DNA from: Hymenobacter yonginensis
Lineage (GTDB): Bacteria; Bacteroidota; Bacteroidia; Cytophagales; Hymenobacteraceae
Direction of reading: 5' to 3'
Assembly (NCBI RefSeq): GCF_027625995.1
Contig: NZ_CP115396.1
Coordinates: 4,588,501-4,652,500, forward strand
DNA length: 64,000 bases
This document shows positions 52,201-53,060 of this stretch, piece by piece (position 1 is the stretch's first letter; every line of letters starts with the position of its first letter). The position numbers were made by a program, and so were the translations under genes. Under the pieces are notes generated by a model. It did not search any database. It saw only the letters and a list, made by a program, of their open reading frames with translations, and was not told the DNA's origin.

Positions 52201-52414
52201 GGCAGGGCTGGTTTGGAAGGCGTTTGGGTATGGGAAAGGGGAGCGTAGACCGCTGAAATGCCGCGCCGAAGCGTAGCAGAGGCCTCTGCCGAGCCAGCCG
52301 AACCGCGCACGGAACCGGTCAGGCCAAAGCAAAGGAGGGAGCCGGGGGCCAGGGCAGGCCGGTACCGGTCAGGTGTGCAGGAGGGGGGAGGGGGGCTGCG
52401 TAGCCGGACTCAGG
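52201..52414 (-). promoter_or_regulatory. C-rich segment between the Cys-leader and metY
   Basis: On the minus strand, after the leader stop, the RNA has a run CAGCCCCCCTCCCCCCTCCT (52401 to about 52382) with little G, then ACCTGACCGGTACCGGCC and a second CCTGACCGGTTCC. A C-rich, G-poor stretch suits Rho binding. No U-run terminator is visible. The upstream extension of metY into this space is not credible as protein. Confidence 0.45.
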
Positions 52415-52576
52415 CTAGCAACAGCAACAACACGCGCCGCAACAGCCGCGCATTCGCATTCGGCCGGCAGCTGGGGCCGTAGCCGCAGAAACGCGCAAAC
52501 CCCACGGCGAAGCAGCAGGCCCGAAGGCGGCCGAAGCGGTGGGGTACTGGGGGGCGAAAGCGAGTGTGTTTTCCAT
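52415..52576 (-). CDS. Cys-rich leader peptide of the met operon
   Basis: A short frame between the SAM riboswitch and metY. From the ATG at 52576 it is 53 codons; the C-terminus reads RMRMRGCCGACCCCC and then TAG (52417-52415). Seven of the last nine residues are Cys. An internal ATG at 52459 would give a 14-residue peptide MRMRGCCGACCCCC. The start at 52576 follows the riboswitch by a few bases (CGGAG-TACC-ATG). The best reading is a cysteine-sensing leader whose ribosome stalls at the Cys run. This is inference; no homolog or experiment is at hand. Chance origin in GC-rich DNA is the main alternative. Confidence 0.6.
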   Translation of the reverse strand: MENTLAFAPQYPTASAAFGPAASPWGLRVSAATAPAAGRMRMRGCCGACCCCC

Positions 52577-52589
52577 GGTACTCCGAGGT

Positions 52590-52703
52590 TATATGCCCCG
52601 CCGCCGGATGGCTGGTCGGGTAGGAATTGGCACCTTTCGCGCGGTCGAAGGTTGCCAGTGGGTCAGGGAGCCTATTCTCTCGCCACTTCTGTATAAATCC
52701 TAT
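52590..52703 (-). ncRNA. SAM riboswitch (SAM-I clan)
   Basis: On the minus strand from about 52703: TTATAC-AGAAGTGGCGAGAG then CTCCCTGACCCACTGGCAAC, C, TTCG..., GAAAGGTGCCAATTCC. The core motifs GGCAACC, GGTGCCAATTCC and the first part AGAAGTGGCGAGAG fit the SAM-I consensus. Both P1 strands can be seen: GG-TTTATA at the 5' end and TATAACC at the 3' end. It lies directly before a Cys-rich frame and metY, as expected for a SAM-responsive methionine operon. Sub-class (SAM-I versus SAM-I/IV-like) is not settled. Confidence 0.8.
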
Positions 52704-52747
52704 GAAAACTTCCCCGCCGCGAGCGGGGGAGTACCGGGTTGGTGTTG

Positions 52748-52779
52748 CAAAGGTATAGGCGCAGTTTTGATATCTGCAA
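52748..52779 (-). promoter_or_regulatory. Promoter of the metY-metX-hom operon
   Basis: TACCTTTG on the minus strand (52755-52748) with TTG (52779-52777) at 21 bases, slightly more than the usual 19. A short GC-rich hairpin (CCCGCTCGCGGCGGG) lies between the probable start and the riboswitch. Confidence 0.6.
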
Positions 52780-53060
52780 CAGCTACCGGTTATTTTTTTT
52801 GGCGCAAGCAAAAGAACGCCGTTTGCGCGCTCCTGATGGCTGTATCTGTAGTGGAGGTTGTGTGTATGTGTCTGATGATTTGATTTATATGCTTGATGAC
52901 TTATTCGGCTAGTCGGAGTTGCCGGCTTCTGTAATCCCCCGGTATGGCCCCGGCTACTGCCGCTGCAGCGGTAGTGGTAGCTGAAAATGCCGCCGCTGGC
53001 CAGCCGGTTTACGGGTGCGAAACCAGCCTGCTCAGCGGCCAAAGCGGCAGGAAAAGACAC
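52780..53060. other. Intergenic region between the met promoter and the LysM gene
   Basis: It contains an AT-rich stretch (ATTTTTTTTGGCG) and a palindrome built on CCGCTGCAGCGG at about 52961-52972. I see no gene and no known element. The long minus-strand open frame through here is without protein-like pattern. Confidence 0.3.

Follow-up and report, generated by a model that had tools for sequence, protein, structure and literature searches.

A SAM riboswitch and an adjoining cysteine/methionine-codon leader frame upstream of Bacteroidota sulfur genes: a candidate two-input attenuator

Introduction

How might a transcript be regulated that begins with a SAM riboswitch and continues with a short frame ending in cysteine codons? 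The question is raised by a 64,000-nucleotide stretch of Hymenobacter yonginensis DNA (NZ_CP115396.1, positions 4,588,501 to 4,652,500; hereafter the window), in which both elements precede metY. Riboswitches are familiar regulators, and so are amino-acid leader peptides; of the genes concerned here, metY serves to make homocysteine out of sulfide, and cysH is one of the genes of sulfate use. A preliminary description of the locus had read the frame as a Cys-sensing leader peptide. We propose, with a probability of roughly 0.6, that the leader is a two-input attenuator, in which SAM would gate a Cys/Met sensor frame and ribosome stalling in that frame would decide premature termination, probably via Rho.

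Organization of the metY leader

The elements follow one another on the minus strand in the order promoter, SAM riboswitch, 53-codon frame, stop-codon hairpin, C-rich tract, metY, metX-like gene and homoserine dehydrogenase (Table 1). Several of them had been described beforehand and were recovered: the promoter upstream of the riboswitch, the frame, which reads MENTLAFAPQYPTASAAFGPAASPWGLRVSAATAPAAGRMRMRGCCGACCCCC-stop exactly as claimed, the C-rich, G-poor stretch (at about 52395-52378), the identity of metY, and the 214-base gap between the leader stop and the metY ATG at 52200. The metX-like gene scored 354.1 bits against TIGR01392, under the curated cut-off of 500, and its start codon is our choice within a longer GTG frame. 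Among the matches listed, 54 of 72 metY loci have a TAnnTTTG sequence no more than 120 bases ahead of the riboswitch, as compared with about 5.9 expected from shuffles.

Table 1. Positions of the leader elements and operon genes within the window.
Feature	Position	Strand	Basis or remark
TTG element upstream of -7 box	52777..52779	-	sequence
-7 promoter box TACCTTTG	52748..52755	-	Bacteroidota TAnnTTTG type
SAM-I riboswitch aptamer (RF00162), predicted	52586..52699	-	62.2 bits, E 5e-12
P1 closing stem, 5' strand UUUAUA	52692..52697	-	sequence
P1 closing stem, 3' strand UAUAAC	52588..52593	-	12-17 bases ahead of leader start codon
Leader peptide frame, 53 codons, MENTLAFAPQYPTASAAFGPAASPWGLRVSAATAPAAGRMRMRGCCGACCCCC-stop	52415..52576	-	translation; starts nine bases past riboswitch
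Putative sensor tail RMRMRGCCGACCCCC, Met and Cys codons	52418..52462	-	C-terminal end of leader frame
Small hairpin UAGCC / GGCUA, overlapping leader stop codon	52401..52417	-	sequence, local fold
Pyrimidine-rich, G-poor tract 3' of leader stop; candidate Rho loading site	52378..52395	-	base composition
metY, O-acetylhomoserine sulfhydrylase	50818..52200	-	TIGR01326, 683.6 bits, cut-off 495.1
metX-like homoserine O-acetyltransferase, second gene of likely operon	49445..50494	-	TIGR01392, E 7.9e-106
Homoserine dehydrogenase, third gene	48214..49455	-	NF004976, 313.4 bits, cut-off 205

The riboswitch and its closing stem

A SAM-I riboswitch had been placed at 52703-52590. The assignment held, but the coordinates were four bases off, since the RF00162 match runs from 52699 to 52586 at full length (model 1-108) and exceeds the gathering score of 44.4. 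Core bases of the aptamer were invariant or nearly so in 21 aligned relatives. By its covariance score the window element is a SAM-I riboswitch, with SAM binding predicted.

A scan for MetY relatives gave 80 metY loci among the matches listed, all Bacteroidota by title. A covariance model detected a riboswitch in 72 of these 80; two of the other eight (L073, L096) have fewer than 120 bases upstream. The same model found one riboswitch in each of 62 Hymenobacter metY loci, the window included. It was built from 21 sequences, among them the window and four Hymenobacter riboswitches of other operons, and replaced a regular expression for the riboswitch core that missed many loci. Because its RNAalifold structure is without P1, and four Hymenobacter GTG-leader sequences are misaligned there, it served for detection only.

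P1 is mostly UUUAUA/UAUAAA (TTTATA in 66 and exact TATAAA in 49 of the 72 riboswitch-bearing metY loci among the matches listed), and, being nearly invariant, it shows no covariation that could serve as evidence. Across the riboswitch loci, some 7-23 bases separate its 3' strand from the leader start. Bacteroidota mRNAs are naturally without Shine-Dalgarno sequences, and structure near the start codon tunes initiation in Flavobacterium (PMC6847099); the P1 3' strand falls inside the stretch where it does so. Leader frames start 5-15 bases past the closing stem, and translation of the leader itself may thus well be under SAM control. The preliminary description had missed this spacing. P1 is unlikely to mask the metY start directly, because the first gene starts 64-326 bases past the leader stop (leaders with at least two Cys among the matches listed, leaving out L037-L039, in which metY lies 925-969 bases from the leader). 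The element resembles SAM-I riboswitches in its aptamer match to RF00162 above the gathering score; unlike the usual SAM-I riboswitch, its most likely output would be start-codon masking of the leader frame and not of the gene itself.

The leader frame ends in Cys and Met codons

In 68 of the 72 listed metY loci with a riboswitch, an ATG frame of 18-64 codons opens at +5 to +15 past P1, the leader ATG being defined as the one nearest to +9 within -4 to +34 after P1. Of the remaining four, one has a TTG frame and three were scored as having none (L063, L100, L103); in L063 and L100 a Cys-tail frame is present and the model end is misplaced. Classed by their last ten codons, 44 of the 72 listed loci have at least four Cys, 12 have two or three, five have at least two Cys plus Met, and eight are low. 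Over 69 leaders among the matches listed, Cys accounts for 287 of 690 residues in these tails (42%) as compared with 51 of 1942 in the bodies (2.6%), and Met for 79 of 690 (11%) as compared with 34 of 1942 (1.8%). In Sphingobacterium, the tails of three leaders are rich in Met (for example SMRMRMHMHLPTC). Together with the enrichment of both residues, these indicate a sulfur-amino-acid tail, wider than a Cys tail.

metY was found in 61 of the 62 Hymenobacter genomes searched (E 1e-150). The leader frame was present at 62 of 62 Hymenobacter metY loci (61 fetched plus the window) by a filter, written after the first tails had been seen, that required at least two Cys among the final 14 codons and an RM or RIR motif among the final 16, and that second, presumably chance, two-Cys frames pass in 3 of the 62. 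Hymenobacter tails span RMRMRCCCSACCCCC to RMRMCWGCRM, the latter with two Cys only. The earlier reading of the locus as a SAM riboswitch plus a Cys-sensing leader withstands the refuting condition set for it, since the frame, its position and the Cys run are kept in all 62 Hymenobacter loci examined and in most of the 72 riboswitch-bearing metY loci among the matches listed, but it had missed the enrichment of Met.

In the genus of M. oryzae, metY was found in 44 of 46 genomes, and a leader with at least four Cys in its last 12 codons at 29 of the 30 Mucilaginibacter-genus loci among the matches listed; the exception, L207, had no visible leader, and the Mucilaginibacter set of 29 excludes it. 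By name, hosts of Cys-tail leaders include Hymenobacter, Pontibacter, Rufibacter, Cesiribacter, Chryseolinea, Thermonema, Mucilaginibacter and Pedobacter, along with MAGs named as Haliscomenobacter, Saprospiraceae and Flavobacteriales. The eight tails low in Cys and Met, among the 72 listed, come from five Algoriphagus, one Spirosoma, one Sphingobacterium and one MAG, and to judge from their codons the sensor is lost or replaced in these leaders. The Algoriphagus frames (L059, L066, L070, L082, L106) form a natural loss series, keeping their position after the riboswitch with the Cys tail gone. Their distance to metY is 44-73 bases in four of the five, and the L106 frame overlaps metY.

A gene intervenes between leader and metY at ten Hymenobacter loci, and there the leader stands 197-237 bases ahead of that gene. 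The kept distance to the first gene indicates that the module belongs to the operon start and not to metY. These loci are L157, L158, L160, L162, L163, L166, L170, L144, L152 and L156; the intervening gene of L166, the one of the ten tested, is AhpC/TSA (Pfam).

Codon usage points to selection on the tail residues

Could the frame be a chance one over a repetitive TGY-rich RNA element? For a frame with at least four Cys in its last 12 codons, ending in the 420 bases before metY, the counts were 45 of 78 loci on the sense strand, 1 of 78 on the antisense strand, and 16 of 1255 among random 420-base windows of the same loci (78 of the 80 listed, those with at least 460 bases upstream), an excess over background with a Fisher p of about 9e-49. 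Three of the 33 sense-strand negatives (L037-L039) do have a leader, more than 900 bases upstream of metY. The Cys codons also differ in their third base, T or C: over the 44 listed loci with at least four Cys, each of the eight final positions is filled by TGT in some loci and by TGC in others, which points to selection on the amino acid. In favour of a chance frame is the base-level conservation of the CGA-ATG codons of the tail. In 62 Hymenobacter leaders, CGA makes up 110 of the 167 Arg codons found among the last 15 positions, as compared with 4 of 129 in five window genes, an excess that may reflect a slow codon or an RNA signal. Weighing both sides, we consider a chance frame scarcely credible.

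In the RMRM block (52430-52465; relatives L111-L171) the Arg codons are almost always CGA. Long-range pairing of the conserved CGAATG was rejected as an explanation, as CATTCG was no commoner nearby than expected (5 of 62 Hymenobacter loci, 5.8 expected).

The comparison of synonymous and non-synonymous change proposed in the preliminary description pointed in the same direction, with nonsynonymous/synonymous ratios of 0.48 for the tail and 0.66 for the remainder of the frame, but it is a weak test, based on 14 close Hymenobacter pairs. The mild constraint on the body (ratio 0.66), together with the Cys-rich C-terminus, would suit a functional small protein for metal binding or thiol buffering. 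We regard such a protein as very improbable, as the body looks unrelated between genera (by eye), Met stands in place of Cys in some lineages, and the frame lies directly between the riboswitch and sulfur operons; nor did the leader frame have a family match in NCBIfam or PHROGs. A conserved leader after the riboswitch is well supported by these comparisons. A short conserved frame rich in codons for amino acids of the pathway, as found here, is a trait of ribosome-mediated attenuators.

Two riboswitch types and the sulfur regulon

Five Hymenobacter genomes hold 22 riboswitches, 17 with a TATAA-type and five with a GATAA-type P1. All 17 of the TATAA type are followed by a leader whose last ten codons include two or more Cys; under the stricter requirement of at least three Cys in the last 12, 15 of them still qualify. 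Their targets are metY (5), cysH (5), an amino-acid permease gene (3), an ATP-grasp gene (3) and one other; the leaders start with ATG at metY and, one ATG excepted, with GTG at +9 or +10 elsewhere. The GATAA-type riboswitches of these genomes all precede metH, 66-73 bases from the gene, and no leader was found at any of the five. Target genes were profiled one per kind (PAPS_reduct, L255; AA_permease_2, L264; RimK, L258) and the others named by similar N-termini; L260 is methionine synthase MetH (partial gene), and L266 of the ATP-grasp group had no Pfam match at 1e-5. The module had initially been ascribed to the metY operon, which does carry it, but cysH, the permease and ATP-grasp carry it too in the five genomes. 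On these sequence comparisons the riboswitch-leader module is part of a sulfur regulon (metY, cysH, permease, ATP-grasp) wider than metY.

The association extends to a set of 81 riboswitches, made up of the best 30 from Hymenobacter, 30 of 35 in ten other genomes and 21 further ones. A frame with at least three Cys in its last 12 codons follows 27 of 37 TATAA-type but 1 of 44 GATAA-type riboswitches (p 3.5e-12, for related loci that are not independent), the single GATAA-type case being a Pedobacter metY. Cesiribacter has such a leader upstream of a ferredoxin-type gene and Sphingobacterium one upstream of an OsmC-like gene; GATAA-type riboswitches without such a leader stand upstream of metE (L185), metF (L195) and a cystathionine synthase/lyase-type gene (L018). 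metH, metE and metF serve the methyl cycle, and in the genomes seen they carry the SAM riboswitch alone.

These data bear on whether the riboswitch acts on its own, with an independent plain Cys sensor behind it, as two separate controls in series. TATAA-type riboswitches without a marked Cys tail do exist: 10 of the 37 fall short of at least three Cys in the last 12 codons, and in the metY set the leaders of Algoriphagus and others have no such tail. Coupling of the two elements is argued for by the association of P1 type with the leader, and by the narrow spacing of 5-15 bases from P1 to the start, whether ATG or GTG and in several operon types. Independent controls are accordingly an unlikely arrangement in our estimate.

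The region downstream of the leader stop

The RNA past the leader stop contains a tract rich in pyrimidines and poor in G, whose peak lies at +10 to +40 in Hymenobacter, at +10 to +30 in Mucilaginibacter and at 0 to +30 in 47 other loci. The pyrimidine fraction in Hymenobacter is 0.77 just past the stop as compared with 0.58 further down, and higher in 59 of 62 loci; in 46 other loci it is 0.63 as compared with 0.54, and higher in 37 of 46 (p 3e-6). A conserved C-rich, G-poor region near the leader stop, as observed here, is a trait of tna-like Rho attenuators. Rho is encoded in 8 of 8 genomes. Sites resembling intrinsic terminators number 7 in 62 Hymenobacter loci (3.7 expected), 0 in 29 Mucilaginibacter loci (0.3 expected) and 0 in 47 others (1.0 expected), and no terminator hairpin with a U-run was found between leader and metY in the window. 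A classical attenuator with an intrinsic terminator was rejected on these grounds. The conserved tract, the scarcity of intrinsic terminators and the presence of Rho together favour Rho over a classical attenuator, and premature termination would probably be its work.

The sole terminator-like hairpin of this stretch of the window lies upstream of the aptamer. A GC-rich hairpin followed by AAGTTTT occupies 52712-52728, between promoter and aptamer, with 0.6 such sites expected by chance.

The preliminary description had proposed that a stalled ribosome covers the C-rich Rho site. A Rho step is plausible in view of the tract, the few intrinsic terminators and the presence of Rho, but the covering geometry appears to fit poorly: by an estimate from footprint size, stalling at the first Cys codons would bring the ribosome edge only about to the stop codon, and the tract peaks at +10 to +40 in Hymenobacter and within 0 to +30 in the other sets.

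Local folding was assessed in the same sets. The stop-codon region is folded in Hymenobacter (mean z -1.32, 62 loci), the mixed set is mildly structured throughout (z -1.12 within the leader, -1.07 past the stop), and Mucilaginibacter is folded past the stop (mean z -2.0 from 0 to +55, -1.66 from +40 to +95). When partners were swapped, 12, 54 and 22 of 2000 swaps reached the observed value for downstream pairing, and 162 of 2000 did so for the stop hairpin outside Hymenobacter, in both cases with kinship not corrected; RNA pairing downstream of the leader beyond that of swapped partners is suggestive only. A pairing of the Mucilaginibacter tail AUGUGU with a downstream ACACGU, judged by eye, was dropped, as the clade with GCACGCC/GGCGUGU does not preserve it.

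Folded post-stop RNA of the kind seen in Mucilaginibacter would suit a two-input leader with an output other than Rho, in which stalling alters mRNA folding, stability or downstream translation. The small frame of speF in Salmonella acts at once on Rho termination, on the folding of the RNA and on its decay by RNase G (PMC6386406, available part). Downstream hairpins, however, differ by genus while the pyrimidine tract is common to them, and in many relatives the region before the metY ATG is A-rich and open, with no sequestered start (by eye). A non-Rho output is a minority possibility in our judgement.

Proposed mechanism

From conserved sequence features we infer SAM gating, stalling and Rho action in three steps. 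When SAM is plentiful, P1 would close and its A/U-rich 3' strand would mask the leader start, leaving the leader untranslated. When SAM is low, the leader would be translated, and scarce Cys-tRNA (or Met-tRNA) would, as the conserved codons suggest, stall the ribosome in the Cys/Met tail before the stop. The third step is the weakest: if no ribosome is stalled, Rho may load on the pyrimidine-rich RNA past the stop and end transcription before the first gene, and a stalled ribosome would hinder both the stop-codon hairpin and Rho loading, so that transcription continues. The operon would then be on only if SAM and the supply of cysteine/methionine were both low.

A broader proposal, to which we give even odds, is that this forms an AND gate in a sulfur regulon found across much of Bacteroidota, whereby the SAM riboswitch would permit translation of the sensor peptide, stalled translation alone would turn on the sulfide/sulfate genes, and SAM-only riboswitches of the other P1 type would control metH, metE and metF. 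With cysteine in good supply, such a gate would save sulfide and reducing power. If true, it would be a compact two-signal device in which the output of a riboswitch is translation of an amino-acid sensor frame, would tell how Bacteroidota use SAM riboswitches far from the gene, and would offer a testable reason for the different SAM riboswitch types on sulfur-uptake and methyl-cycle genes.

Relation to known systems

tnaC senses free Trp by an arrest peptide and acts through Rho-dependent attenuation. The frame described here likewise lies beside a pyrimidine-rich post-stop region, with Rho suspected; unlike the tnaC arrest peptide, codon starvation at Cys/Met is proposed for it. Canestrari is said, by way of citation, to have described polycysteine leaders in mycobacteria in 2020.

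The comparisons that follow draw on the available parts of each paper. To the polycysteine leaders of actinobacteria (Mycobacterium and others) the resemblance is in kind: both are short frames that precede sulfur genes and carry Cys codons close to their stop. In actinobacterial cys operons, leaders with Cys runs near the stop are without a conserved terminator hairpin; Rho and polyY motifs, the latter called not conserved, were suggested for them in 2005, and tna was named as an analogy (PMC1262725). Polycysteine leaders are also cited as translation attenuators in mycobacteria (PMC13236596). Unlike these leaders, for which the available part of the 2005 paper (PMC1262725) mentions no riboswitch, the frame here has its start tied to a riboswitch P1, uses Met codons too, belongs to another phylum and is followed by a tract that recurs across genera. 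The uORFC-8-2 motif before cysS in Rhodobacterales shares the small frame with tandem Cys codons, for which ribosome stalling was proposed, but has a U run consistent with an intrinsic terminator and, in the part available, no riboswitch (PMC8632094). In mgtA of Salmonella and E. coli, with mgtL (PMC11552253), and in speF, with orf34 (PMC6386406), a folded leader and a small frame likewise affect Rho termination; these respond to other signals, whereas here a separate classical metabolite aptamer lies ahead of the start codon of the frame.

S-boxes in metagenome pieces from Bacteroidetes/Chlorobi were reported with no leader described in the available text (PMC2211319), and the available parts of transcriptome papers on B. 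thetaiotaomicron and F. psychrophilum discuss leader peptides in general terms without naming one of the SAM-plus-Cys kind. The preliminary description knew of no riboswitch-plus-Cys-leader of this kind in Bacteroidota, and in agreement with this no description of a SAM riboswitch with a Cys/Met leader was found in the open-access literature, as judged from titles and abstract starts, a body of text that leaves most subscription journals outside.

Leader-like patterns elsewhere

Two pattern searches were set aside. An exact-pattern search of the phylum matched 21 of 395 genomes and was too strict for an estimate of distribution, and a plain search for TGY runs was unspecific, matching 277 of 296 genomes. 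In two genomes (G065 and G070), patterns of a TGY run plus TRR numbered 25 and 24, as compared with 2 and 1 for the reversed control, and could be Cys leaders or Leu-rich coding sequence. Two Hymenobacter GTG leaders (L267, L025), with no cysH downstream and the first long frame more than 500 bases off, carry an internal VQH(G/R)CC motif and in this resemble cysH leaders.
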